Shown here one piece after another: positions 7,223 to 43,615 of a stretch of DNA of 64,000 nucleotides. The DNA lies in contig JAEOTF010000069.1 of the NCBI GenBank assembly GCA_016840025.1, positions 14,323 through 78,322 on the forward strand, in the 5' to 3' direction. Within the stretch, counting starts at the first letter, position 1; the number at the start of each line of letters is the position of its first letter. A model generated the notes under the pieces. That model searched no databases and had not been told where the DNA came from. It worked only from the letters and a program-made list of their open reading frames with translations. A program made the position numbers and the translations under genes. Origin of the DNA: Candidatus Hodarchaeota archaeon (GTDB lineage: Archaea > Asgardarchaeota > Heimdallarchaeia > Hodarchaeales > YT1-039).

Positions 7223-7989
7223 TTTATCACAGGCATTTCTCTGTGTTTTTTGTGAGCGTCTATTTGGAATTTTTTTGTTTGAAGTTAATGTACTTTTGGG
7301 TACTTGGTGTACTTAAATGTACTTTTATATTCCAGTTTAGATTATGGCAATTGTAAAGAATCTAGAGAAGTGAGCGATTCTTTGATATCAAGGTATGGTT
7401 ATAAGCAGAGCAAACTCAAATTTGGATTTATTATGCATACAACCTGAAACTAACCACCGTTATCTGCAATTGAACATTTTAACCGACTCTCTACTCGCCA
7501 TCTCATCATTGGGCTTTTATATAATAGAATCAGGATCCTACAAATGTAATATCTTTGTAATACGTTGATAAAACCACATAAATTAATCAAATGTGTTATT
7601 AAGTCTGTATCATTATTTGGATTAAGGATAGCCTAATAGAATAGAATGGGGAAATCCTAATGTTTAAGTTAATAAAATCTGTTGTAATTGCAACATATTT
7701 AGAGCATTTGTAATTCCTTTTTTACTTTAGAACAAGCTTCAATGCACTTTATTTAACGAATAAAATATTTTAGCCCATTTTAAAATTTATATGAGCTCCG
7801 AGAATAGGCCAAAGAATCGACTACTCGTTTTTATGGAATTAAAGTTGGGAAAACAATGTAAAAGAAGAATAGGGGTCTTTCATGTTAATAAAAGGGTAGA
7901 TATAAAGAAGATAAGTTCTTTTTCTTAGTAAAATCAGTTTTCTGAAGTTTCTATTTGTTTTCCTAAGGAAAAAGTTGTTTTTTCCTTTT
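7223..7989. other. 767-base gap between the two HEITH paralogs
   Basis: AT-rich, with no long frame on either strand and no tRNA-like or repeated structure that I can see. The part next to 7222 must hold the promoter of paralog A. A short stretch at 7284-7325 repeats TGTACTT three times (AATGTACTTTTGGG, GGTGTACTTAAATG, TGTACTTTTA). Confidence 0.4.
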
Positions 7990-9525
7990 TTATGGTTTCA
8001 AACGATGTTCTTTACGCGTATCCAGATGAGATCTTCTTTTAGAAGTCCACAAATTCATTTCTTTGACTAATCTAAGTATATTCTCTTCTTTTGGTGAAGT
8101 ACCATCCCCTAAAACCATTTTTGAAAAAAGAGCTCTAGAAGAAGAAGCAGGAGTAAGCTGGTGCTGGTTAATAAATTCCTTCCGATCTTCTTTACTTAGT
8201 GATAGAACGTACATAAAAAGAGCAAAGCTTTTGGCTTTTAGCTCAGGAGTTACGTCAAAAACATCTCGATGCATGTAAGAATCAAAGTAAAATGTTGAAA
8301 ATTCGGGAAAAAACACAGTAGATTGACTCCAGTCGTACTGTGCTAATTCTCCGAATAGAAATGGTACAAGCTCTGGCTCTGTGAGGGATAACTTTAAAAG
8401 CGCTTTAGAGTAACTTGTTAAGACTAAAACATCGAATAAATGTTTTTTAGACAAAACAAAACCCAGAATATCCTTCCCCGAAGGACCATATTGTGCCACC
8501 AATTCTAAAAATTGAGGAACTCCTGTAGCATATTCTAGGGAACGAGAACCACCAAAACTGATAATAGCCTCACTTATCAGTCGACAGGCTACTAAAGGAT
8601 AGCCGTATTCGCGTAATTTTGCAAAAACATCTTTAGCACCTGTTGTCAATGTTTTATAAATAGTCAGAGCTTCATCTTTGGCAAAAAGATCTTCAGTTTT
8701 ACTAACTGCATCATTTAGGGCATAACCGAGATTAATATGGTAGAAAGAGACTAAACCTCGGAAAGCACCGATCACGTCCTTCTTTGTCTGTGTTATGGAT
8801 CGCAAAACAGTCTTTTCAGTATCTCTGGTAATATTAACTAAATACTCTGCAACTTTTGGAGTTAGGCCATGGAAATCTGCCAAATAATCGTACGCAGAAT
8901 GACGTTGATTGATAAAATACTTTTTTTCTGTCTCATCGATAAGATTTCTTAATTTTGCAAGTAGTTTAGCTTCAGAAATCCCAGCCTTCTGATTAACAAG
9001 AAATTCTATGAGTGAAGTTCCCAATACCAAGGAGACTTCGGTGATGATTTTACCTAATCTTTTGTCTTGTCTCGAATAACTACGCCCATGTAAAAGAGAC
9101 TGAATAGTATAGTCGAAATCTCCCACACAAAGGATTTCAAGGGCAAAAGCACCAGCTTCTGATGAAAGAAGAGATTTTTTAAGTTTAGGATTATTATGAG
9201 TTATTTCGTGGAGTAAGGTAGCATAATCTCCTGGACGAATGAGGATGATTTGGCTTTGCTCGTCATTAATTCCAAAAAAAGAGCCATCACCCGAATCCCT
9301 CAATCTTGAGCTAACTTCCAGAATTTTATCCTTGAGGTCATCAAGATTGGGAAAATAGGCAGAAACTCCTAGATAGTTTAACCATGATTTGATATGGGCT
9401 ATGAATTCCTCTTCTGGATTTTCAACATAAAATTGCTGCCCAGCGCCAATCTTACTTTTATCTCTCATAAAATCCAGATAGTCTTGTTTTTTCCGAGTTA
9501 TGTTCTTGGAATGCTTTCGTTGCAT
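7990..9525 (-). CDS. Unknown 511-residue protein with HEITH motif, paralog B
   Basis: Clear full-length paralog of the neighbouring gene. HEITH lies near residue 106 and SSEAGAFALE 13 residues after its last histidine. N- and C-terminal ends diverge most: this copy has a basic start (KHSKNITRKKQ) and a basic tail (SKRRSHLDTRKEHR). The middle block around ITQTKKDVIGAFRGLVSFYHI is almost unchanged, so that region, not only the metal site, is under selection. Translation could begin at the inner methionine MRDKSKIG, which aligns better with paralog A. Function unknown; the conserved metal site suggests peptidase-like activity but this is inference. Confidence 0.8.
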   Translation of the reverse strand: MQRKHSKNITRKKQDYLDFMRDKSKIGAGQQFYVENPEEEFIAHIKSWLNYLGVSAYFPNLDDLKDKILEVSSRLRDSGDGSFFGINDEQSQIILIRPGDYATLLHEITHNNPKLKKSLLSSEAGAFALEILCVGDFDYTIQSLLHGRSYSRQDKRLGKIITEVSLVLGTSLIEFLVNQKAGISEAKLLAKLRNLIDETEKKYFINQRHSAYDYLADFHGLTPKVAEYLVNITRDTEKTVLRSITQTKKDVIGAFRGLVSFYHINLGYALNDAVSKTEDLFAKDEALTIYKTLTTGAKDVFAKLREYGYPLVACRLISEAIISFGGSRSLEYATGVPQFLELVAQYGPSGKDILGFVLSKKHLFDVLVLTSYSKALLKLSLTEPELVPFLFGELAQYDWSQSTVFFPEFSTFYFDSYMHRDVFDVTPELKAKSFALFMYVLSLSKEDRKEFINQHQLTPASSSRALFSKMVLGDGTSPKEENILRLVKEMNLWTSKRRSHLDTRKEHRLKP

Positions 9526-9694
9526 TATTTACACATGCATTTTAAGGCTTAAGAATAGGAGATACTTAATATCTCAGTACGCTTATTTTAGTCATTTATC
9601 CCCAATATATCCACTTACTCGCTCTAATAACCATTGGTATTAAAAATGGCATTGCTCATTGTGAAGCCTTCACTTAAGTTTCATTTTATCCTGG

Positions 9695-11704
9695 ATGAGA
9701 ATGAAAAGCATGAGAACTCCTTACCTCGGTAAAATTCGATTAAGACATTGTAATCAGTGTAACCTACCTGTTCTTGGTAAAAAATGCGGGATTTGTGATG
9801 AATCGACTAGAGAGGTAAGTATCACACCACCAGGCGACGCTCGACCGATTTTTGAAAAAGAATATGTCCTCATCGAACAAGCCATCCAAAATTCATTCGG
9901 TTCTGCAGTTGCGAGGGAGATAATTAATGCTCTCAAAGAAAGAATCGTTTTACTAAACAAAGCGCCTTATGAAGATAGGATGGATGAAATTATTGTTGAA
10001 GGAACAGTCATTGGAGTTATTCGCTTTGACCTAATACGGAATAGACTTGAATTTCACCCTAGATTAGATATTGCGCCATGGGTCTACAGCCGACCAGGAT
10101 TAGTGAAATTTAAAGGCTGGGTACTCGTAGATCCTGACCTAAAGAAATTACTAGCGAAGTCTAAAGTGTCTGTCCTAGCGCCTGGTGTCCTTCAAGCCGA
10201 CCCAGAAATTGAGATTGACGACCCAGTTTTTGTCCTTTGTAAAGATGAGATAATAGCAACTGGACTCGCCAAGATGACTGGTCTAGAAATGAATAAGGCA
10301 AGATCGAAAGGTACACGAGGTGTAGCTGTCAAGGTAAAATATTATAAATTTAAGAGACCAGTTCTTTCTTCATTAAAGGGAGAACAAACTTGGAATTGTG
10401 TCTTAAAGGCGAATAAACTCGTAATTACTGATTTCGAGCTTGAAGCCATTCAATTTATCAAAAGGGTAGAGAAAGAATTCGATCTTCATCCTGTAGTAGC
10501 ATATTCAGGTGGAAAAGACTCCTTAGCGGTTTTATTATTAGCACTCGACGCTATTAATTGTCGGGACATTATTTTCGCGGATACAGGCTTAGAGTTCCCA
10601 GAAACCCTAGAAAATATTGATATAGTCAAAAGAGAATTACATTTGAATGTTTTTACAGAAGCTGCATCAATAAAAGAATTTTGGGAACGTTTTGATCAAT
10701 TTGGCCCACCATCAAGATCAACCCGTTACTGCTGCAAGCGATCTAAACTCACCCCCATCAATCAAATAATTGAAAATGCGTTTCCCGATGGCGTCCTTGC
10801 CTTTATTGGCAGCCGGAGATACGAATCGCTGAGTAGGTCAAAAGAATCGCGCGTTTCAAAAAACCCTTGGATCCCAAAACAAACTATGGCAGCACCTATC
10901 AGGAATTGGACTGCTCTCCATGTATTTCTTTATATTAAGGCGAAGGAAGCAGAATACTTGCTTAATCCTATTTACAATAGAGTGGGGCTTGCAAGAATAG
11001 GATGTTGGCTTTGTCCTGCCTCAAATCAAGCGGATTTGCGGTTAATCGCAGATAATTACCCCGAATTATATAATGAACTTGAGCTACATATTGAACAATG
11101 GGAGCGTAAGAGAGGCTACCCTAAACTGTGGCGAACATTAGCCTTATGGCGTTGGAAAACAGTGCCAAAGAAGATACTAGACCTTCTTGAAAAAGCCAAT
11201 ATTTCTTATTCACCTCAATTTTTGGAGTTTAAACATGCTCTCTCTTTCGAAGTTGCATTAACACCCTCACCTTGTAAAGAAGGAGGGATTAGATTCACTT
11301 GTCAAGCTTCTGGTCCCCTTAACTTAGACAGAATAGCTGCACTTACCCCAATTATAGGAAAAACGAACCAAAACACTTCTTTAGGACTTCTCTTTATTCG
11401 GAACGGAGAAAATCGCATTCATATTTATGCGGACGGAACAATAAGTGCTCAAGGAAAACAAGAAGGGGAGTTACGGGAGATATTAGCTGCAACAATAGGA
11501 AACATTGTTCGTTCTGAATCATGCGATCAGTGTAGGACTTGTTTTGCTCAATGTAATCACGAAGCTTTGTCCTTTGACGAAAAAAGTCAAATAATAAAGG
11601 TAAATGAAAAATTATGTATAAAATGTGGTAAATGTATAGAATACTGCCCTACATGGAAATATGACTACCAAACAGTACGTGAGAAGATTTTAGCAAAATC
11701 CTGA
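9695..11704 (+). CDS. Zinc ribbon-PUA-PAPS reductase family-ferredoxin fusion
   Basis: A 669-residue fusion seen in archaea (MJ0066-like). Order: zinc ribbon with C19, C22, C31, C34; an N-terminal alpha/beta region; a PUA-like RNA-binding domain around 155-220 (PGVLQADPEIEIDDPVFV); an adenine-nucleotide alpha-hydrolase domain with the SGGKDS P-loop at 271-276, DTGLEFPETL and the later CCKRSK and GCWLCPAS cysteine motifs; and a C-terminal 2x[4Fe-4S] ferredoxin (C610, C613, C616, C620 and C641, C644, C647, C651). PAPS reductase-fold enzymes activate a substrate by adenylation or reduce sulfonucleotides. With a PUA domain, tRNA thiolation or another RNA modification is more likely than sulfate assimilation, but this is inference. 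Confidence 0.85.
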   Translation: MRMKSMRTPYLGKIRLRHCNQCNLPVLGKKCGICDESTREVSITPPGDARPIFEKEYVLIEQAIQNSFGSAVAREIINALKERIVLLNKAPYEDRMDEIIVEGTVIGVIRFDLIRNRLEFHPRLDIAPWVYSRPGLVKFKGWVLVDPDLKKLLAKSKVSVLAPGVLQADPEIEIDDPVFVLCKDEIIATGLAKMTGLEMNKARSKGTRGVAVKVKYYKFKRPVLSSLKGEQTWNCVLKANKLVITDFELEAIQFIKRVEKEFDLHPVVAYSGGKDSLAVLLLALDAINCRDIIFADTGLEFPETLENIDIVKRELHLNVFTEAASIKEFWERFDQFGPPSRSTRYCCKRSKLTPINQIIENAFPDGVLAFIGSRRYESLSRSKESRVSKNPWIPKQTMAAPIRNWTALHVFLYIKAKEAEYLLNPIYNRVGLARIGCWLCPASNQADLRLIADNYPELYNELELHIEQWERKRGYPKLWRTLALWRWKTVPKKILDLLEKANISYSPQFLEFKHALSFEVALTPSPCKEGGIRFTCQASGPLNLDRIAALTPIIGKTNQNTSLGLLFIRNGENRIHIYADGTISAQGKQEGELREILAATIGNIVRSESCDQCRTCFAQCNHEALSFDEKSQIIKVNEKLCIKCGKCIEYCPTWKYDYQTVREKILAKS

Positions 11705-13823: not shown

Positions 13824-16800
13824 GTGAGAGATAACTCAGAAAGTATGGATTGTTCGGATGTTAACATTGCAAAAGAACGATTACCGACCGTTAGTTATCT
13901 TTCTGAGTTTAGTAAACAGAATAGAAGCAAGAAGAAGGAGGAAGATCTTCTAGAAGACATCAATAAATGGTATATCCTTTTAGTGAACGGAATCCACCAG
14001 AGGGGGAAGGATGTAAATTTTGCAAAAAAACTCCTATTCTGTTTTCTATTTGTACGATTGTTGGAAATCAACCAAATACTTGCTCCAAAATGGATGTTAC
14101 CGATCTATTTTCATGATAAGAAAGAGAAAGCAAACGTTCCAAACGGAAAACACACTCTAAGAATCGCTCTCCAGGAAATGTTTGATGATTATGGTATTGA
14201 TTTGTTTACTGAGAGTTTAACCACATTAGATGACTTGCCTAATGAAATTCTTTTAGAAATTCTAAAAGAATCTGATGTCTCTTCTCTAGCAATTGAAAAA
14301 ATATACAAATCACATGGTTTGCCAAGTAGAACGGTGAATTTAGGGATATATGGACACAACACTCAAGCTTTCTCTTTAGACACCCTTAATGCTGCTTATG
14401 AAGAATTATTTCATTACGATCTTGATAAGAAGACAGATAGAAGCAAAAAAAGCCCGATCGATAGTAAAAAGAAACAAACTCAGCGGAAGAGCAAAGGAGC
14501 ATACTTTACTCCTAGAGATTTTGCCGAATTTTTGGTAGAAATAACCCTTAAACCGCGATTAACCAAACTAAAGAATTCTATATTGAAGGAACTTGAAAAT
14601 GAAGATAATTCTAAAGTATTAGCGATTTTTAAGAAAATTCACGATATAAAGATTTTAGACCCTGCTTGTGGTAACGGCGTTTTCCTAACAGCAGCATATA
14701 GGGAAACGTGGAATTTCTATAAAGATCTTAAAAAGAAAATAAAAGAAAGAAGACAGTTTCACGTAGTCTCAGATGAATTTGTGGGGATTGGACAAAGGAT
14801 TCTATTAAACAATATATTTGGAGTAGATAAGGATCCCCAAGCTGTCGAAATAACAAAACTAAATCTCTGGCTACATTTACTTGTATCTGAACAAACCCGT
14901 TATGATATTCGGAGAAAAGAGGAAAAAACAATCAAACTCCCTCCATTGGATAGCAATATTCTAATAGCTAACTCAATTTGGCACCCAAAAACCACTATTC
15001 ATACCATAGATCAAAATTTAAGGGAAAAACTGTTTAGTTATCGAAAAGCCTATCAAAACAAACTAATTGAGAGTTACAAGATAAGAGATATTGATAACAG
15101 AGAAAAATTGCGGGAAGAAGCAAGTACCCTTGAAAAGAAACTCCAAAAAGTAAGGAAAAAATGCTGGGAGAATGAAGCTCAAAAGATAGCAATATCTGGA
15201 CTAGAAGAAGGAAAACCGATTGTTTGGCCTTTAGTATTTCCTGAAGTTTTTTTTCGTTCTAATTCAGGTTTTGACATTATACTGACCAACCCCCCCTTTC
15301 TAGCTTATCATAGCCGGCAAACTCAATCTATTTCCCCTGAATTACTCACCCTTTTCCTGCAACTTTATCCAGTTTTAGGTCAAAGGAGACCGAATAGTTA
15401 TCTGTTTTTTCTAGAACTTAGTTTTAGCTATTTACTTAGAAAATCGGGACGAATCGGACTCATCGTGGATCAAGCGCTAAGAGATTTACCTGCTTATAAG
15501 CATGTGCGGGAATTCATGCTGAATAACCTTTACATAGAAACAATAATACCCCAAGTTGAATTTCCTGGGGCTACAGTAGATGTTACTTTAATTGTGGCCG
15601 AGCTTCCTGACACGACTGGGATTTTAAAGCAGCCTATCAAATGGATGGCCACACTATTCGATTATCCTTCGCCCATCCTACTAGAAAAAGCGTATTTCTC
15701 CACTAAACCAAACTGTGAATTCATCTTTAGTACACAAGAGCATTTACTCAGGAAGATTGAGAAGCATCCCTCAATTCCTCTCGGAGGAAAAGAAGGACTC
15801 TGTGATTTAGCCTGTGGTCTCGAATATAGTGTTTTGTTGAAGAAACATTTTCTATCGTCATTTAAGGAAGATAAGACTTTCCATCCTGCTGTGGATGGCG
15901 CAACTGACATTCCAAACCGTTATACTCTTGCTTGGTATCCTAAGAAGGGAAACAAGGCCTATGTAAGATTTGATAAAAGTTTTGAAGAAAAACTTATCAT
16001 TGAAGGAAAGAACCTAAGCAATACAGGGAAGACTGTAATCTTTGTTTCAGGAAATGAAACTCGTTATAAAAAGCCCAAAATCATCTTAAGACAGACATGT
16101 ACCGAATTTTGTGGAATACTGGATGAAAATAAAGATCCCTATGGTTCCTACTATAGTCTGAGAAATACCCATGTGATCAATCTTAAAGAAAATAGCCCAG
16201 TAACTCTTCCGTACATTCTAGGAATTCTCAACTCACATTTAATCGCGCTTTACGGGCGAGAAAAAAATATTATTAGAACAACAGGAAAAAATAGGCAACC
16301 ACAAATCCGTATCCGGGATTTAGAACGGATTCCTCTTGTTCTTCCACCTATCGCACTTCGTGAACAGTGTTTTCACTTTTTTGATAAGTATGTAAAACGA
16401 CTAAGTGCCCTTAAGCGAACTATCGCGCTTCTTGGCATTTATTATGGACAACAAATCACCGATAGAAAAAAATTTGATTTTCAGGACTTTATTTCTTTAG
16501 ATAATTTATTAAAATCCCACAATGAAGTTTTAGAAGCTTTATGGATCAATTTAAAGCAAAGCAGAAAAATTAAAAAAACCGAAATGCAAATACCGCGTTA
16601 TTATAAAACTATTTTTGCAAATGAATATACAATAAAACTCATTTGCAAGAATGCAGATAAAAAAGAAACCACAATAGTACAAGTTAATTTCGATCCAGGT
16701 TGTCCAAATTGGGTAAAAGATTTTCTTTACTTAACCCTTTCATCAAAATCGGGAAAAACAAGCTATAAATCCAAGGTTTCATTACAAATACCACTTAAAA

Positions 16801-17036
16801 AACGATTTAATATTCCTATACCGGTGTATGAAGAAATATCAAAGCTGAGGAACATTTATTCAAGTTTTATCTCCCTTTTATGGGCTAAAGTAGCTGAGGA
16901 AACAAAAATACAATCTACGAGCGCCTTTGCGATTCTTCATGAAGCAAGCCAGATCGATGACAAAATTGAACAAGTTGTTCGAGCATTATATGGAATAGAG
17001 GGAGATCTTTCACAAATTCTAACAATATTATCTTGA
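13824..17036 (+). CDS. Adenine-specific DNA methyltransferase, type IIG (Eco57I-like) restriction-modification protein
   Basis: A 1070-residue protein. Methylase motifs are in the gamma order: motif X with KGAYFTPRDFAEFL near 224-237, motif I LDPACGNGVF at 278-287, FGVDKDPQAVEITKLNLWL at 332-350, and motif IV TNPPF at 488-492. The 500-residue C-terminal part looks like a TaqI-type target-recognition and specificity domain (AYGREKNIIR..., RIRDLERIPLVLPP). The first 200 residues are helical and lack a clear PD-(D/E)xK nuclease, so cleavage activity is not shown. It is probably the modification or combined restriction-modification enzyme of a small islet with the cytosine methylase 73 bases downstream. 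Confidence 0.85.
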   Translation: MRDNSESMDCSDVNIAKERLPTVSYLSEFSKQNRSKKKEEDLLEDINKWYILLVNGIHQRGKDVNFAKKLLFCFLFVRLLEINQILAPKWMLPIYFHDKKEKANVPNGKHTLRIALQEMFDDYGIDLFTESLTTLDDLPNEILLEILKESDVSSLAIEKIYKSHGLPSRTVNLGIYGHNTQAFSLDTLNAAYEELFHYDLDKKTDRSKKSPIDSKKKQTQRKSKGAYFTPRDFAEFLVEITLKPRLTKLKNSILKELENEDNSKVLAIFKKIHDIKILDPACGNGVFLTAAYRETWNFYKDLKKKIKERRQFHVVSDEFVGIGQRILLNNIFGVDKDPQAVEITKLNLWLHLLVSEQTRYDIRRKEEKTIKLPPLDSNILIANSIWHPKTTIHTIDQNLREKLFSYRKAYQNKLIESYKIRDIDNREKLREEASTLEKKLQKVRKKCWENEAQKIAISGLEEGKPIVWPLVFPEVFFRSNSGFDIILTNPPFLAYHSRQTQSISPELLTLFLQLYPVLGQRRPNSYLFFLELSFSYLLRKSGRIGLIVDQALRDLPAYKHVREFMLNNLYIETIIPQVEFPGATVDVTLIVAELPDTTGILKQPIKWMATLFDYPSPILLEKAYFSTKPNCEFIFSTQEHLLRKIEKHPSIPLGGKEGLCDLACGLEYSVLLKKHFLSSFKEDKTFHPAVDGATDIPNRYTLAWYPKKGNKAYVRFDKSFEEKLIIEGKNLSNTGKTVIFVSGNETRYKKPKIILRQTCTEFCGILDENKDPYGSYYSLRNTHVINLKENSPVTLPYILGILNSHLIALYGREKNIIRTTGKNRQPQIRIRDLERIPLVLPPIALREQCFHFFDKYVKRLSALKRTIALLGIYYGQQITDRKKFDFQDFISLDNLLKSHNEVLEALWINLKQSRKIKKTEMQIPRYYKTIFANEYTIKLICKNADKKETTIVQVNFDPGCPNWVKDFLYLTLSSKSGKTSYKSKVSLQIPLKKRFNIPIPVYEEISKLRNIYSSFISLLWAKVAEETKIQSTSAFAILHEASQIDDKIEQVVRALYGIEGDLSQILTILS

Positions 17037-17109
17037 ATTAGTAAGCTTTTTTTGTAATCTTATTGATATTTTGAGAGAATTTTTTAACAGGCTCCTCTAA
17101 TTTTCAAGT

Positions 17110-18060
17110 ATGCCCACTGTTATTGATCTGTTCTGTGGTGGTGGTGGTTTTAGCTGCGGTTTTGAACAAATGGGATTCTCTACCACACTAACAGTGGATA
17201 ATGATTATTATGCTTGTCAAACCTATGCTCATAACTTCCCAAACACATCTGTTCTACGGAGAGATATTCGGGAACTTCATTCGCTTGAAATATTAGAGAT
17301 AACGGCTGCACCAGACGTTGTTCTCGCCAGTCCACCATGTGAATCCTTCTCCCGGGCTAACCCCAAACGAAAGAAGAATCCTTTGGATCGGGTTTTTGAT
17401 GAAGACTCATCGGGGAATTTACTCCTTCATGCTATCAGACTTATCGGTGATCTTGCTCCAAAGTTCTTCATTATTGAAAATGTTACCCCAGCAATTGAGG
17501 GAAAATTAGGGGGATTAATCCAAGACCAATTCTCGTTAGCTGGATATGATGAAGTTTTTTTTAATATTATTGACGCGGAATGGCATGGAGTTCCTAGTAT
17601 AAGACGACGTGTGTTCATCTCGAATGTGCAATTTGATTTAAAGCCTTCTAATTCCATAAAAACAGTTGAAGAGGCATTTATTGATCTTCCACCACCTGAA
17701 AAACCACATGAATTGGTAAATCACTATGAAATTGCGATATCATGGAGATATGAGAAAAAACTACCTACACTCACATGGGGGAAGGGATTGGTATCGTTTG
17801 GGGGAGCTGGAGGAAAAAGTTACTGGAATTGGACTCGATTAGATCCTACTAAGCCATCTCCAACAGTGATGGGACTTTCTCAGTTTATTCACCCCTACGA
17901 AGATCGAGCATGTACTGTACGAGAACATGCACGTTTGATGGGATTTTCCGACCAACATATCTTTTTAGGACGGACAAGGAATCAGTATAATCAAGTAGGA
18001 GAAGCAGTACCACCGCCAATCGCCTATAAACTGGCAAAAATTCTCAAAGAATTAATTTGA
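17110..18060 (+). CDS. C5-cytosine DNA methyltransferase
   Basis: A 316-residue SAM-dependent methylase. Motif I is DLFCGGGGFSCGFEQMG at the N-terminus; motif IV is PPCES with catalytic C77 (a glutamate replaces the usual glutamine); motif VI is ENV at 123-125; motif VIII is SIRRRVF near 163; motifs IX and X are the REHARLMGF and NQVGEAVPPPIA blocks. The target-recognition region between VIII and IX is short (about 60-70 residues). It follows the adenine methylase gene on the same strand. Together they could modify two positions of one asymmetric site or protect against one nuclease; no separate restriction endonuclease is recognised nearby. Confidence 0.9.
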   Translation: MPTVIDLFCGGGGFSCGFEQMGFSTTLTVDNDYYACQTYAHNFPNTSVLRRDIRELHSLEILEITAAPDVVLASPPCESFSRANPKRKKNPLDRVFDEDSSGNLLLHAIRLIGDLAPKFFIIENVTPAIEGKLGGLIQDQFSLAGYDEVFFNIIDAEWHGVPSIRRRVFISNVQFDLKPSNSIKTVEEAFIDLPPPEKPHELVNHYEIAISWRYEKKLPTLTWGKGLVSFGGAGGKSYWNWTRLDPTKPSPTVMGLSQFIHPYEDRACTVREHARLMGFSDQHIFLGRTRNQYNQVGEAVPPPIAYKLAKILKELI

Positions 18061-19560: not shown

Positions 19561-20418
19561 TCATCCGAAAAATAATCCCATAAAAACGATCCAGCCGAGA
19601 CTAGATTTTGCAAATAAACTAAGCAATTGATACCAGCGTTCTCCATAAAGATAATCTTTCCATGGACCTACTTTTTTATACTGCAAGAACATATTTACGG
19701 CAAAACTGTTGAAGAAAATGAAATACATTGCAAAAGCTACATAAACAAATGTAGGAACTTCACGTCCCGCAGTATTGATGTTGATAAGATTATCAAATAT
19801 GATAACCCAAGGTGCTGCCCCGGCTATCCAGCCTAAAAAATATGGAGTCCAATCAGTTTTCTCTGTATATTGATTAAGTTTTTCCATCATCAGACCAAAC
19901 ATATTCATAAGACCATTCAAAACAAAAATGGCAAACATGAGCCAAAAACTGAGAATTCCAAAAGCTAGCGCAATGAAAATAATCATCACGGAACTTGAAA
20001 ACGCATATTCATACCATCTCAAAGGATTCATCTTTTTCCGTAAATTAGTCTCATAATAGTCATTTAATGGAAAAGCAATCAAGAGATGAGCAAGTGCAGA
20101 CATGAGAAGGAAGGTAGAAAGTAAAATGCCTGCTATATTTTGAAAAGTAAAAAAGACTTCAGGTTCAGGCTCAAAGAGTGGTGGACCATCTTGACGCAAT
20201 TCTTTTATCCCTAGATAAAAGGTATAAATGTCGATTGAAAAATCACGGACATTTTCAACAACTATACCTAGAGTTAGAATAAGAAGCCCTTGTATCAAGT
20301 GCAAGATACCCATAGCTAGGTTAAATTTTCTAAGATATGCAAAGGTTATTTTAGAGTCTTCTACATTGGCGGACAAAATAAAAACCCCTTGAATCAAGTA
20401 GAAAATTAGTTTTTTCAA
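19561..20418 (-). CDS. Heliorhodopsin
   Basis: A 285-residue seven-helix protein. The diagnostic TM3 motif NPLRWYEYAFSSS (131-143) contains E137, the expected counterion, and the TM7 motif SLFAKSSLGW holds K271, which should bind retinal. Other heliorhodopsin marks are RKFNLAMGILHLIQG in TM1, NMFLQYKKVG and DYLYGE before TM7. Heliorhodopsins have an inverted topology (N-terminus inside) and no known proton pumping; signalling or regulation is proposed. They occur in several Asgard lineages. Translation may start inside, as about 20 extra residues precede the family's normal start. It follows a co-directional membrane protein gene by 64 bases. Confidence 0.92.
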   Translation of the reverse strand: MKKLIFYLIQGVFILSANVEDSKITFAYLRKFNLAMGILHLIQGLLILTLGIVVENVRDFSIDIYTFYLGIKELRQDGPPLFEPEPEVFFTFQNIAGILLSTFLLMSALAHLLIAFPLNDYYETNLRKKMNPLRWYEYAFSSSVMIIFIALAFGILSFWLMFAIFVLNGLMNMFGLMMEKLNQYTEKTDWTPYFLGWIAGAAPWVIIFDNLININTAGREVPTFVYVAFAMYFIFFNSFAVNMFLQYKKVGPWKDYLYGERWYQLLSLFAKSSLGWIVFMGLFFG

Positions 20419-36864: not shown

Positions 36865-37014
36865 TCTTTAGGATCCTTCATTTTAACAAAGAGAGAACTA
36901 CTTAAAAAAAACAGAAGCCTTTGGGATGTTAAAATGCACTTTCTTGAAACCCATTGCTCAAAAGTGACTTGGCTCTTTTTGTAGCTTTGATGGGTTTATT
37001 CTATATAATTACCG

Positions 37015-37055
37015 AATAAAGTCGTTAAATAGTTGTACAACATCAATAAAGTCGT
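37015..37055. promoter_or_regulatory. Palindrome between two direct repeats upstream of the ParB-radical SAM operon
   Basis: AATAAAGTCGT at 37015-37025 and again at 37045-37055 flank the perfect 10-base palindrome GTTGTACAAC at 37032-37041. The array lies 120-160 bases upstream of the small gene that starts at 37176. A ParB-type binding site or operator is a reasonable hypothesis since ParB proteins bind short palindromes; nothing more is shown. Confidence 0.5.
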
Positions 37056-37121
37056 GTTATAAAATTAAGTATGCTATCGCTATGCCATGGCTTGTTAAAA
37101 CCCAAGAAGTGGAAGAAGGTA

Positions 37122-37165
37122 TTTATAACTGATCTATCCCTATCCAATCAAGTTATCAAAGAGGT
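37122..37165 (+). promoter_or_regulatory. Probable box A and ribosome site for the ParB operon
   Basis: TTTATAAC at 37122-37129 fits an archaeal TATA element about 50 bases before the ATG at 37176. AGAGGT at 37158-37163 is a likely ribosome site, 12 bases before the start. Confidence 0.4.
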
Positions 37166-37175
37166 ATAATATCTA

Positions 37176-37421
37176 ATGTCTATCCAACGCTTGAAGATTG
37201 AAAGTGGGAAATTCTATATTGTCCAAGCGGGAAAAACCCAATGGATCCACGCGGACAAAGAGAGTGCTATTGGAACCCTCACGGAAATTATCCGTGAAGA
37301 CAATACCATCAACCCCGAAAAGACCCAGATCCTCGAAGTTGATACGGTCAAGGAGAAATGGAGTATGACGGCAGTTCCATGGGCAGAAGTAGCCTTTGGA
37401 CTGATCAGGAAGGGAAAATAG
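37176..37421 (+). CDS. Small protein preceding the ParB-radical SAM gene
   Basis: An 81-residue soluble alpha/beta protein (SIQRLKIESGKFYIVQAG, EIIREDNTINPEK, SMTAVPWAEVAFGLI). Family unknown. The stop codon is followed directly by the GTG of the next gene with no gap, so translation is coupled, and the two proteins probably work together. Confidence 0.7.
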   Translation: MSIQRLKIESGKFYIVQAGKTQWIHADKESAIGTLTEIIREDNTINPEKTQILEVDTVKEKWSMTAVPWAEVAFGLIRKGK

Positions 37422-39311
37422 GTGCCTATAGCGAAAAGAGTGTCAATTAATGCTATTCGTCCTAGTCCATTCCAACCTCGTCAATATTTCGATGAAGACA
37501 AATTAGAAGAATTAGCGAAATCTATTTCAGAAGTCGATTTAATCGAACCTATTGTTCTCCGCAAAAAAAATCAATCAGAATCCTATGAACTCATAGCAGG
37601 CGAACGGCGGTGGCGCGCCTGTCAAAAAGCAGGGCTTAAAGAGATAGACGCGGTGATTTATGAGAATATCAACGATTTCGAGGCCTTATTACTATCAGGC
37701 ACAGAAAATCTCCATCGTGAAGATTTGACCAGTATCGAACGAGAGAATCTAATTTATCACTTATGGGAACTAGGGAGAGAAGCAGGTGAAATAAGGGAAG
37801 GACATGGGAGTTATACTGATTTAGCACGTAAATTAGGCCTTACAACCCCAGCTATCCAACAAACTATTAAGGCTAAAGAATTTCGAGATGCCAGTTCCTT
37901 CAGTGATAAAGTTTCTACCTTCTCAATCGCCCAGACAAAAAGTTTACCTCCAGAAGAACGCACTAAGATCTTAGAACGAGTGGAAAAGGAAGAGATTGCT
38001 CCCAGTAAAGTTCAAACATTCGTCCGTACGATGAAACAAGTCTCTAAGCCTGTCAAAGAGGCTATGCTCAAGTCACAATCCAAAATTACTCCTGAGGTAG
38101 CTCACGAAATTGAACAAAAGATCCCTACTAAAACAGGAAGGAAAGAAGCCATTGTACAAATTGAGGGGAGCGCCTTTCCAGCAACTGAACCAGCCGTTGG
38201 CACTATAATTGAAGAAATAGGAGCTAAAGAACATCGTAAACAACTCGTCCTTACAGAATTCATTGATGAAGATCAAAAGGAAGAGAGGCCAGAAATTAGG
38301 GAGAAGGAAGTAACCATTGAAAAAGAGATCCCCGGGAGTCTTTCGATTCAATTTTATCCGTACACTTATCTAGACGGTTCTAAGGCGTGGCGGGGTAGGA
38401 GAGTAGGGGATGGCTCAATTATTGAGATCTTTGACGCAACTCCTGCACCCAAATCACAGATTGATGTAATTTGTCCCCATTTTATGCAACTCAAGTGGGC
38501 TACAGGTTGTCCTTTTGACTGTGCTTGGTGTTACCTCCAAGGAACACTCCCCCTTCTGGATGGAGAGACAAAGCCAAACTATAAAGATAGGAAAAAAATC
38601 GCTCGACATATCGAATGTTTTGTGCAAAGTACCGCGCGCCCTGAGATCCTTAATACAGGTGAATTAAGTGATAGTCTCATGGGTGAGAGAGAGAAAGGAA
38701 AAAAACCCTTTAGTAAGTTTATCATCGATTTGGTGAAAAAACACCGCCGAATCAATCGAACTAAACACAAAATCCTATTTCTCACTAGATCGGACTATAT
38801 AGAACATCTTCTGGAAGCTAATGGTCAAGATGTAGCGATTTGTAGTATTACAGTGAATGCGCTTGAAGTCGCTAGACGGTGGGAAGCCAAGGTTCCTTCT
38901 GTTCAGAACCGGTTAGAAGCAGCCAGGAAGTTAAAGGACGCTGGTTATGAGGTACGCCTGCGAATTGATCCCATGGTGCCTATAGAAAATTGGGAAGAGG
39001 AATATCTCGACCTGATCGATCTGATCTTCAAATATCTAATACCGGATCGGATTACGTTGGGATCACCCAGAGGGCTTCAATCTACACTGGATAACGCTAA
39101 GAATAAGGCTTGGGCTAAATACCTTAGTGAACGTACTGATCGGGGTCTGGGGGTTCCGTTTGATGCCCGTTATGCGGTGTATAAAGCCGTCATTGACAAA
39201 CTTCGCAAAAAATACATCTATATGTCTGTTAGTCTCTGCAAGGAAACCCTCGCTATGTGGACTAAACTCGGTATGGACTTTTCCTACCCTATGTGTAACT
39301 GTATTGCATAG
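37422..39311 (+). CDS. ParB-radical SAM (spore photoproduct lyase-like) fusion
   Basis: A 629-residue fusion. The N-terminus is a ParB/Spo0J CTPase-type domain: GERRWRA (60-66) and ENLHRED (95-101), the two CTP-binding motifs, then a helix-turn-helix near 130-150. A 100-residue linker (about 200-300) leads to a radical SAM domain with C363-x3-C367-x2-C370, the spore photoproduct lyase-like block LNTGELSDSL, RIDPMVP and ITLGSPRG, and a C-terminal MCNC. The start is the GTG at 37422, directly after the upstream stop. Separate families are known for both halves; I know of no characterised protein combining them. A DNA-bound repair or modification enzyme loaded by ParB sliding is a hypothesis. 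Confidence 0.85.
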   Translation: MPIAKRVSINAIRPSPFQPRQYFDEDKLEELAKSISEVDLIEPIVLRKKNQSESYELIAGERRWRACQKAGLKEIDAVIYENINDFEALLLSGTENLHREDLTSIERENLIYHLWELGREAGEIREGHGSYTDLARKLGLTTPAIQQTIKAKEFRDASSFSDKVSTFSIAQTKSLPPEERTKILERVEKEEIAPSKVQTFVRTMKQVSKPVKEAMLKSQSKITPEVAHEIEQKIPTKTGRKEAIVQIEGSAFPATEPAVGTIIEEIGAKEHRKQLVLTEFIDEDQKEERPEIREKEVTIEKEIPGSLSIQFYPYTYLDGSKAWRGRRVGDGSIIEIFDATPAPKSQIDVICPHFMQLKWATGCPFDCAWCYLQGTLPLLDGETKPNYKDRKKIARHIECFVQSTARPEILNTGELSDSLMGEREKGKKPFSKFIIDLVKKHRRINRTKHKILFLTRSDYIEHLLEANGQDVAICSITVNALEVARRWEAKVPSVQNRLEAARKLKDAGYEVRLRIDPMVPIENWEEEYLDLIDLIFKYLIPDRITLGSPRGLQSTLDNAKNKAWAKYLSERTDRGLGVPFDARYAVYKAVIDKLRKKYIYMSVSLCKETLAMWTKLGMDFSYPMCNCIA

Positions 39312-39708: not shown

Positions 39709-41160
39709 ATGTCTGCGGTTAAAAGGGTTGACAAGTTCCGAGAAGCCATCTGGTTATTTGTAGCTAAGACTCTACCTAAAATGCCTGTAGAACTTCAACC
39801 CTCATTAGCGGATATGGCTTGGTTGATGGCTAATCACTTTTTTTCTCCTGAGGTAAGCCAAAAACTGTATCTTAGACTTCAAAAAATCTGGTTAAATCGA
39901 TCTCTTGAATCAAACAACCAAGTAGAATTATTAGCATATTGTGCTTGGAAACTACAACTTTATCTCACATTTAATCAGCCAGAAATCGCCTTCAGTCTAT
40001 TTCAAGAAATAATTAAGGTCATTCGGTACAATGATCATAAACTAGAGACTAATTTGGAGCTATGCTGTATACCTAACTCTAAGAAATTCCCTTTACCCAG
40101 AATTCCAGAGGAGGATATGAAATTTTTATTTGGAATAAGTCAAGCCTGTCAACAGTCGCAAAGTAACTTAACAATCAATTATCTAGCAAACAAGATGGCT
40201 TGCTCCCAAAAAGATCTCATTTGGTATCTTAATAAGATTAAAATGGTTATTGGATCCCTGGTTGCATTTGAAGCTCTTGGATTATATATGTTAAGAGTAG
40301 AAATTGAAATTAGCTCTAATCAAAACTGGCCTCAACTCTTAGAAAGAATCAAACCTATTATCTATAGATGTGAAGCGCATACTTCACCTTCTAAGACTCC
40401 AAAAGAGAATGATCTCTATCCTACACAGCTTTCTATGGAATTTCTGTACCCAATTTCACAAGAAAAACCGCTATTCAAATGGGCTGCCAGAAATAAAATA
40501 AGAGTACTTCGTAAAGTCGAACAATATCTCTACCAGAACTTTAATGTGCTATATAAAGATCAATGGGATCCTTTAGGTACTACTCGTCTAAAGTCAAAAG
40601 GGTCAAGAACTTCTATTATAATTACTTCCAATAAGCTTGAAGTGAATAAGAGACTTCTTAGGATTACTGAAACATATCTGAAGCCTGCAGCTTTTCTTGG
40701 AAATAGAAAAGCAGAAACTGCTGATTGTCTTCTTCCATTTCATAGGCTAGGGTCATATCTGAAAATGAGGGAGAAATGGGCGCACAAAACAGCCGCTGAG
40801 CTTTTTCAAAAACGAATATTAGTTCCATTTTTATATAGTGAGCTTCTTAGATTCGACCCTGAATTTATTCTGGAAGGTGAAGAGCTAACGCTTCAGGATA
40901 AAGCAAAAAGCTATCTATATACCCGTGGAGAAATGCTTCAACCATTTAATGTAGAAAAACAAGCTTGGAATCAGCACCAAAAGGTATTCCGTCTATATGT
41001 ACCCAAGGTTTCTGTGAGCGATTTTGAAGAATTTGAAGTCAGATCTCTTAAACGACTTTATTGGGCTTCACCACGGCCTTTGATTCAGGTAAACATGTAT
41101 GATTTTAAAAAATCATCCTGGAAATGCCCTAAACTTCCAGATCTACATGATTTTCAATAA
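39709..41160 (+). CDS. Unknown protein with winged-helix domain, paralog A
   Basis: A 483-residue protein. The N-terminal 110 residues are a helical bundle. Around 160-190 a winged-helix segment reads LTINYLANKMACSQKDLIWYLNKIKM, in the position of an Lrp/ArsR-like recognition helix. The C-terminal half is alpha/beta with tryptophan- and arginine-rich stretches (KTAAELFQKRILVPFLYSELLRFDPEFILEG). The paralog at 42191-43615 has the same layout. Together with the ParB fusion nearby it could regulate or belong to an accessory element; function unknown. Confidence 0.7.
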   Translation: MSAVKRVDKFREAIWLFVAKTLPKMPVELQPSLADMAWLMANHFFSPEVSQKLYLRLQKIWLNRSLESNNQVELLAYCAWKLQLYLTFNQPEIAFSLFQEIIKVIRYNDHKLETNLELCCIPNSKKFPLPRIPEEDMKFLFGISQACQQSQSNLTINYLANKMACSQKDLIWYLNKIKMVIGSLVAFEALGLYMLRVEIEISSNQNWPQLLERIKPIIYRCEAHTSPSKTPKENDLYPTQLSMEFLYPISQEKPLFKWAARNKIRVLRKVEQYLYQNFNVLYKDQWDPLGTTRLKSKGSRTSIIITSNKLEVNKRLLRITETYLKPAAFLGNRKAETADCLLPFHRLGSYLKMREKWAHKTAAELFQKRILVPFLYSELLRFDPEFILEGEELTLQDKAKSYLYTRGEMLQPFNVEKQAWNQHQKVFRLYVPKVSVSDFEEFEVRSLKRLYWASPRPLIQVNMYDFKKSSWKCPKLPDLHDFQ

Positions 41161-42190: not shown

Positions 42191-43615
42191 ATGTTACCTG
42201 CGGATAGGCTAAGTGACTTGCGAACCGCGTTATGGAAACTTACAACCGATATTATTCCTCAAACTCCCGAGAATCTGCAACCAGCATTAGCGAACATGGT
42301 GCGGTTACTGGGGAATCATTTATTAGACCCCGAAGAAAGTTATAAAATATTCACCGAGATTAGAGAAATTTGGGACATCGATTCTCTTGAACTGGATCCG
42401 CGTATTAATATTTTAGCTCTTTGCACATGGAAGATGCGACTTTATCTCATTTTTAACCTTGCAGAATCTGCCTTCCAATTATTTAGACGAGTCATGCAAG
42501 TTGTTCGCACTGGGGGTCCCGATTATGAGGAACTTCAATTTGTAGCTCGCCCTCACTCGGCAGAATTTCCATTCCCTTTAATTCCTGACGAAGATATAGA
42601 ATTTCTCAATACGGTGGGTTATGCGATTCAGGAATATAGTGATGTCAGCATTAGAAAATTAGCTAAACTGAGCGACCTATCTCAACAAAAAACTCTATCC
42701 CGTTTAAAGAAATTTGAAATGGTCTTCGGATATATGGTTGCAGTGGAAACTCTCGGTTTGAATTGGGTCCGTGCTGAGATCGAATTACGGTCTGCTGATA
42801 GACTTTCCTTATTATTAGAAAAATTCAAACCTTTTGCGTACCGCTGTGAACTACATTCTCCTAATCATGAAAAATTATTTCCCGCTCGTTTCTCCGTGGA
42901 ATTTCTCTATCCCGTTGACCAACAAAAACAGTTAAAGGAATGGGGGAAGAGAAATAATGGCCAATTATACCAGCAGGTGGGACAACACATCTATCAAAAC
43001 TATAATGCGCTCAATAAAGGACAGTGGTATGACAAAGAAACCACTCAACCAAAAAGAGGAGTGCATCAATCAGTACTAAGAAACGTGCATAAACAAATTA
43101 AATTAACGAGAGACCTTCTTAGAGTCCTTGAAAGCTGTCGTCAGGGGGTAAGATTTAGGAGTGATTTAGTCACCGAAAACAGAGAAAAACCTGCTCCCGA
43201 TTACCAATTAAGATTACAGTTCATGTTAAAAGAAGATTGGATGTGGAAGTTAGCAGGGAATCTTTTCAAACAAGGGATTCTAGTACCCTATTTCTTTAGT
43301 AACCTTCTTCTTTGGAGACCTGAGTATGTGGTTGAAGGAGATAACCTAAAATTTCACACAGAGGGAATAAAGTTCCTGTATGCCCGCCAGGAAACTTTAA
43401 AATCCATTGAAGAGCCAGATGATGGTGTAAATCTAACAAAATCTCGTTTATATGTACCTGAAGTCACACCAGAACTACAATACCAGAAAGAATTTAGGCG
43501 GGTTAAACGTATCCACTACAGTCCTAATGAGGTGTTAACTCGAATGAGTCAGTATAGTTTTGAGGGAGCATGCTGGAAAGCCCCAAATCTACCCACTATT
43601 CGTGAATTCCTGTGA
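42191..43615 (+). CDS. Unknown protein with winged-helix domain, paralog B
   Basis: A 474-residue paralog of the 39709 gene. The same three blocks occur: helical N-terminus (LQPALANMVRLLGNHLLDPEESYKIF), winged helix (SIRKLAKLSDLSQQKTLSRLKKFEMVFG), and a C-terminal half with KLAGNLFKQGILVPYFFSNLLLWRPEYVVEG. Similarity is moderate (many substitutions) so the duplication is old. A T9 run at 43617-43625, immediately after the stop, would end its transcript. Confidence 0.7.
   Translation: MLPADRLSDLRTALWKLTTDIIPQTPENLQPALANMVRLLGNHLLDPEESYKIFTEIREIWDIDSLELDPRINILALCTWKMRLYLIFNLAESAFQLFRRVMQVVRTGGPDYEELQFVARPHSAEFPFPLIPDEDIEFLNTVGYAIQEYSDVSIRKLAKLSDLSQQKTLSRLKKFEMVFGYMVAVETLGLNWVRAEIELRSADRLSLLLEKFKPFAYRCELHSPNHEKLFPARFSVEFLYPVDQQKQLKEWGKRNNGQLYQQVGQHIYQNYNALNKGQWYDKETTQPKRGVHQSVLRNVHKQIKLTRDLLRVLESCRQGVRFRSDLVTENREKPAPDYQLRLQFMLKEDWMWKLAGNLFKQGILVPYFFSNLLLWRPEYVVEGDNLKFHTEGIKFLYARQETLKSIEEPDDGVNLTKSRLYVPEVTPELQYQKEFRRVKRIHYSPNEVLTRMSQYSFEGACWKAPNLPTIREFL

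Follow-up and report, generated by a model that had tools for sequence, protein, structure and literature searches.

A ParB–radical SAM fusion protein in a Hodarchaeota archaeon and the seven-cysteine family of its C-terminal domain

What does a ParB protein do with a radical enzyme at its C-terminal end? The question is raised by one gene in a stretch of 64,000 nucleotides from Candidatus Hodarchaeota archaeon (contig JAEOTF010000069.1, positions 14,323 to 78,322), hereafter the window. The gene encodes a protein of 629 amino acids (aa), in which a ParB nucleotide-binding fold and a helix-turn-helix (HTH) are followed by a radical S-adenosylmethionine (SAM, AdoMet) domain resembling spore photoproduct lyase (SPL). 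The reading that we favour, with a probability of about 0.5, is that the fusion is a DNA-directed, probably base-modifying radical SAM enzyme, with a nucleotide-switched ParB module that takes it to DNA. It builds on what is observed of the architecture, the fold match, the conservation and the recurrence of partners, which are presented in that order.

Architecture and recurrence of the fusion

A first-pass annotation, made from the letters of the window, had described a 629-residue ParB–radical SAM protein with GERR and ENLHR motifs, an HTH and the cysteines C363, C367 and C370; all of these are found where it placed them. The features of the open reading frame (ORF) are the following:

37422..39311 (+), ParB–SPL-like radical SAM fusion, 629 aa, GTG start
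37434..37715 (+), ParB_N CTPase fold, residues 5–98, with GERR at 60–63 and ENLHR at 95–99
37806..37895 (+), helix-turn-helix, residues 129–158 (AF2 secondary structure, weak Pfam HTH)
38247..38333 (+), disordered linker, residues 276–304 (pLDDT <50)
38346..39308 (+), SPL-like radical SAM domain, residues 309–629
38472..38474 (+), Cys351, extra invariant cysteine (143/143 aligned rows)
38508..38531 (+), CxxxCxxC radical SAM motif (C363, C367, C370)
38661..38663 (+), Glu414, at the position of the SPL catalytic Cys140
39237..39239 (+), Cys606, extra invariant cysteine (aligned SPL domains)
39294..39302 (+), C-terminal Cys-Asn-Cys (C625, C627), extra invariant cysteines (aligned SPL domains)

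No start upstream of the GTG is possible, because it is immediately preceded by an in-frame TAG (37419–37421), which is the stop of an ORF of 81 aa. According to Pfam, ParB_N covers residues 5–98 (E 2.6e-26) and SPL residues 359–539 (E 1.1e-14); Radical_SAM (PF04055) scores 29.5 bits against a cut-off of 29.5 and thus lies exactly at its threshold. The HTH-like helices, at 129–138 and 142–158 in the AF2 model, are accompanied by weak HTH matches in Pfam, and the HTH_ParB model was not found in the fusion.

A protein search with the fusion gave 364 matches, the best 120 of which were listed; these contain at least ten ParB–SPL fusions, including the window protein. The nine others are 64% (P0002, from the archaeal phylum Promethearchaeota), 57%, 45–47% (six proteins) and 43% (P0010) identical to it. 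The two domains therefore co-occur elsewhere, a check that the first-pass annotation had asked for, and an assembly chimera is ruled out. As that annotation had also supposed, the ParB nucleotide-binding motifs are conserved: G60, E61, R63, E95, N96 and R99 are identical in all ten fusions, and R62 is Met in one. Equally invariant in the ten are C351, C363, C367, C370, C606, C625, C627 and E414. A profile search added no new fusion among the best 120 of its 2778 matches, which include nine of the ten known fusions (all except P0004).

Looking at P0010 separately, it stands apart from the nine other fusions on a long branch of a quick ParB tree, and the SPL tree leaves its position unresolved; its ParB half is 33% and its SPL half 52% identical to the window protein. 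Given this separate ParB placement and the difference between the two halves, two independent fusion events appear likely, so that the ParB–SPL architecture would have arisen twice.

In named phages the fusion has matches in 74 records, all of them covering at most 80% of its length; in 19 of the best 20 it is the ParB half that is matched, in the remaining one the SPL half. A genome census gave a single SPL relative (L001, 29% identity), and the SPL-like enzyme is found in 7 of the 387 genomes of the phylum of L001 at E 1e-30. A viral scan started from ParB (80 loci kept of 217) showed one weak SPL-like gene nearby (L105, E 1e-4), whose sequence, read by eye, resembles a different type of radical SAM protein.

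The seven-cysteine radical SAM family and its partners

The C-terminal half has both the CxxxCxxC motif and the AdoMet-radical barrel of spore photoproduct lyase (SplB; TIGR04070, PDB 4fhc and its kin), but it scores 59.7 bits against the NCBIfam equivalog TIGR04070, far below the cut-off of 400. Cys140 of the solved SPL, which we take to be the catalytic H-atom donor, falls opposite a Glu that belongs to the conserved motif N-x-G-E (Glu414 in the fusion); at the same position the wild type of PDB 4fhc has Cys, and the C140S and C140A mutants have Ser and Ala.

The alignment of SPL domains has 143 rows, of which database proteins make up 123 and virus contigs or genomes the other 20. Rows were picked by the motif CxxxCxxC[YF]L, which 123 of the 220 fetched proteins pass; left out were L125 (without the motif), P0030, in which an intein-like insertion (PF14528, PF14890) splits CxxxCxxC, and viral loci that duplicate or nearly copy others. 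Besides the three motif cysteines, which serve the radical SAM cluster, C351, C606, C625 and C627 are invariant in 143/143 rows, and owing to the way in which rows were picked only these four are independent of row choice. The position of Glu414 is Glu in 123/123 database proteins and in 17/20 virus or genome rows, one viral scan pattern having contained GEL and thus biased the viral rows toward Glu; the remaining 3/20 have Asn (L122 and L123 are two of them). The SPL alignment with the fusion stops at residue 607, ahead of the C-terminal CNC.

Because the catalytic Cys140 is replaced by Glu414, the domain is, as judged from its sequence, a distinct family and not spore photoproduct lyase, and the SPL-like chemistry first proposed for it is not supported, the residue being Glu in all 123 database proteins. 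The four extra cysteines may be ligands of zinc or of an auxiliary Fe-S cluster, their number being that needed by a single zinc or a single auxiliary [4Fe-4S] cluster. The same evidence bears on whether the protein is a DNA repair lyase that, like spore photoproduct lyase, undoes a pyrimidine lesion, its ParB part gathering the enzyme on the chromosome. This is improbable in view of the substituted catalytic residue, the NCBIfam score and the four invariant cysteines, which have no counterpart in the aligned part of SPL.

The SPL-like family is present on virus contigs, in archaea and in bacteria, and its radical SAM domain is coupled elsewhere to DNA-binding or methyltransferase-like partners. 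Two of these recur: ParB, either fused to the enzyme or encoded by a neighbouring gene (on two virus contigs), and TcmP (TIGR04474), either fused or adjacent and methyltransferase-like in our reading of its sequence and name. TcmP is fused to the SPL-like enzyme in P0011 and P0012 (the two tested, both above the TIGR04474 cut-off), and 13 long proteins among the best 120 of the 364 matches resemble such fusions. In P0029 the SPL-like enzyme is fused to an HTH. As for separate genes, the ORFs of ParB, SPL and TcmP overlap in that order on one strand of virus contig L011, those of TcmP and SPL overlap in genomic region L121, and a ParB gene directly follows SPL on virus contig L028. Whereas L011 has both partners, the window fusion has ParB in the place of TcmP. 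On virus contig L008 two SPL genes adjoin a TcmP gene on the opposite strand; these two genes (7980–8945 and 8998–10110) differ from one another, and the same arrangement is seen in L010. The SPL protein of L011 has no match in named phages at E 1e-5 and six distant matches in plasmids (24–29% identity).

N6/N4 DNA methylases (PF01555) are found in 8/14 SPL-bearing virus records compared with 4/30 ParB-bearing controls (one-sided Fisher p 0.004), and three of the four control matches exceed the curated cut-off. The 14 records were taken from 18 distinct contigs after dropping L009, L018 and L025 (near copies by score) and L012 (without the family motif); record lengths in the SPL and control sets have means of 66 and 50 kb and medians of 43 and 42 kb. 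A first methylase count (5/14 vs 2/80) was discarded as circular, its queries having been drawn from SPL loci. The enrichment is support for a link to DNA, not proof. The main ground for taking DNA as the substrate is the nature of the partners, whether fused or adjacent: ParB and HTH bind DNA, and TcmP is methyltransferase-like.

The ParB half and the upstream region

ParB folds are general nucleotide switches, and the N-terminal half of the fusion passes the ParB/Spo0J family TIGR00180 with 104.4 bits (cut-off 58.45). With the ParB, Noc and KorB CTP-dependent clamps it shares the ParB_N fold, the C and P motifs and the HTH. Unlike them, it has an enzyme at its C-terminal end and no detected dimerisation domain there (no match to PF23552 or PF17762 up to E 1), and a Pfam scan of 36 window ORFs shows no ParA (35 of these come from the 59 ORFs of at least 110 aa and include the nearest on both sides; the other is the 81-aa ORF). 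Nucleotide-gated DNA binding by the ParB half is plausible from its motifs. The first-pass annotation had it loading as a clamp; since no ParB dimerisation domain was detected, closure as a sliding clamp is doubtful, and another dimer interface is possible.

The nearest relatives of the ParB half are stand-alone ParBs and ParB–DUF488 fusions, DUF488 being a second kind of domain carried by related ParBs; in the quick ParB tree the ParB–DUF488 fusions (P0047, P0053 and kin) need at least two changes. Concerning such proteins, Kaljevic et al. 2025 (PMC12704722) describe many ParB–enzyme fusions, which have in common with ours a ParB fold joined to an enzyme, and an archaeal DUF488–HTH ParB fusion that binds CTP. 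The partners named there include methyltransferase, HNH, acetyltransferase, CBS, DUF488 and others, and the words 'radical' and 'spore photoproduct' are absent from the main text. ParB–enzyme fusions are thus already known, and the ParB–SPL pairing is a novel variant among them. As to the pairing itself, no paper on a ParB–SPL fusion was found in the open-access literature, where listings were partial in part and most subscription papers lie outside the coverage. Papers on ParB together with radical SAM (e.g. PMC10853773 and PMC5379612, in their accessible parts) include none on a fusion, and nothing was found in open-access papers on TcmP with radical SAM.

Upstream of the fusion the following features are located:

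37176..37421 (+), small ORF of 81 aa, whose stop abuts the GTG of the fusion
37032..37041 (no strand), palindrome GTTGTACAAC, a possible operator or parS-like site
37015..37025 (+), direct repeat AATAAAGTCGT, copy 1 (exact, 11 nt)
37045..37055 (+), direct repeat AATAAAGTCGT, copy 2 (exact, 11 nt)
37002..37009 (+), with a second at 37057..37066, TATA-like sequences, possible archaeal promoters (string match only)

The palindrome between direct repeats, noticed in the first pass, is present as described. It also sits between the two TATA-like strings, and it occurs in a single copy in the window. Palindromes of 10 bp are ordinary (57 in the window vs about 78 in simulations); a palindrome that has the same exact 11-mer on each flank, no more than 40 bp away, is found once here and in 2/100 first-order Markov simulations, a test devised after the motif was seen. 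It is reasonable to suspect an operator or loading site in the palindrome.

The 81-aa protein belongs to no NCBIfam family, its best Pfam match is at chance level (E 0.21), and its AF2 model is poor and uninformative (pLDDT 59.7). It has two database relatives, P0122 (83%) and P0123 (81%). The contig of P0122 has 10,671 bases, as has that of the fusion P0002, so that the two probably share one contig; the contig of P0123 has 1375 bases. Conservation of the small gene, which the first pass had proposed to test, is therefore seen in two relatives, one of them probably beside the 64% fusion, but no comparable counterpart was found for the other eight fusions.

These upstream features invite the view that the protein is a regulator, its ParB part controlling its own promoter in the manner of KorB or Noc and its enzyme acting on RNA or protein, with the 81-aa protein as a possible substrate. 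The small gene directly adjoins the fusion, its conservation is higher (83% in P0122) than that of the fusion (64% in P0002), a palindrome lies in the upstream region, and many radical SAM enzymes have RNA or peptide substrates. The small protein has two database relatives only, however, and the TcmP-, ParB- and HTH-linked forms of the enzyme point to a nucleic-acid target, most simply DNA; we consider a regulator of this kind quite unlikely.

Genomic surroundings and the role of the fusion

Downstream of the fusion lie two paralogous genes of unknown family (39709–41160 and 42191–43615, both +), which match each other at E about 1e-95, the second with a weak winged-HTH match. They are followed by TrmO and then by metabolic genes, e.g. 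those of acyl-CoA dehydrogenase and electron-transfer flavoprotein. The fusion excepted, no Pfam families typical of viruses or plasmids are found among the window ORFs scanned. Further away, an Eco57I-type methylase (1070 aa) and, immediately after it, a C5-cytosine DNA methylase (13824–18060, +) form a probable restriction-modification locus about 20 kb from the fusion. The window also contains a heliorhodopsin gene (19561–20418, −; PF18761, E 3e-84) and a 669-aa protein with PUA, PAPS-reductase and ferredoxin domains (9695–11704, +), possibly a thiolation or sulfur-transfer enzyme.

Those methylases are among the points that suit an anti-virus defence role, in which the enzyme would be an effector or marker altering invading or own DNA, with TcmP, ParB and DUF488 as interchangeable parts. 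The TcmP parts match the PADLOC candidates PDC-M30A or PDC-M41A, the ParB–DUF488 protein P0053 matches PDC-M19A and PDC-M45, and a table of S. meliloti genes (PMC12445080) lists a TcmP gene beside the Hna defence gene. For the window fusion itself the one PADLOC match is to the model of a type II methylase; it is weak and falls in the ParB region. The window methylases are distant, and the many family members on virus contigs would be equally suited to counter-defence. On balance we regard defence as unlikely.

We return to the favoured reading of a DNA-directed modification enzyme. Here the C-terminal barrel would most likely install or complete a DNA-base modification rather than split spore photoproduct, and the N-terminal ParB fold and HTH would bind a nucleotide, probably CTP, and DNA. 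Together they would keep the enzyme on DNA in the vicinity of particular sites, of which the upstream palindrome may be one; if the palindrome is such a site, the fusion gene would regulate itself. The DNA substrate, the type of chemistry, the use of CTP and the roles of the palindrome and the 81-aa protein are what we infer in this scheme.

Several points weigh against it, besides the doubtful clamp. Most SPL entries among the best 120 of the 2778 profile matches look stand-alone by length and Pfam (e.g. in Methanoperedens), without a DNA-binding domain. In five genomic regions (of seven SPL-bearing genomes) TcmP is beside the enzyme in one and ParB in none, and no ORF of at least 60 aa in the window matches a purpose-built TcmP profile. 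The 30 control records of the methylase comparison were hand-chosen from 80 ParB-bearing ones. A section heading in PMC12704722 states that nucleotide specificity is not reliably predictable from sequence. Finally, DNA binding, activity and DNA as substrate of the enzyme family are predicted from sequences, and RNA or protein is possible as the substrate instead.

A bolder extension, which we consider unlikely at present, is that the family constitutes a novel class of DNA modifiers, radical SAM enzymes which have an auxiliary Fe-S cluster on the four extra cysteines, maybe insert sulfur or another group into DNA bases, and are steered by interchangeable CTP-switched ParB, TcmP or HTH modules in microbes and viruses; DNA around sites like the palindrome would then bear an unknown epigenetic mark set by the enzyme in these archaea. 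A ParB with a radical enzyme would make a direct link between base chemistry and a switch that binds DNA. Of greater import, perhaps, is the radical SAM family with its seven cysteines: with ties to TcmP and DNA methylases, it has the look of a source of DNA modifications yet to be studied, and the fusion offers a single-protein handle on it.
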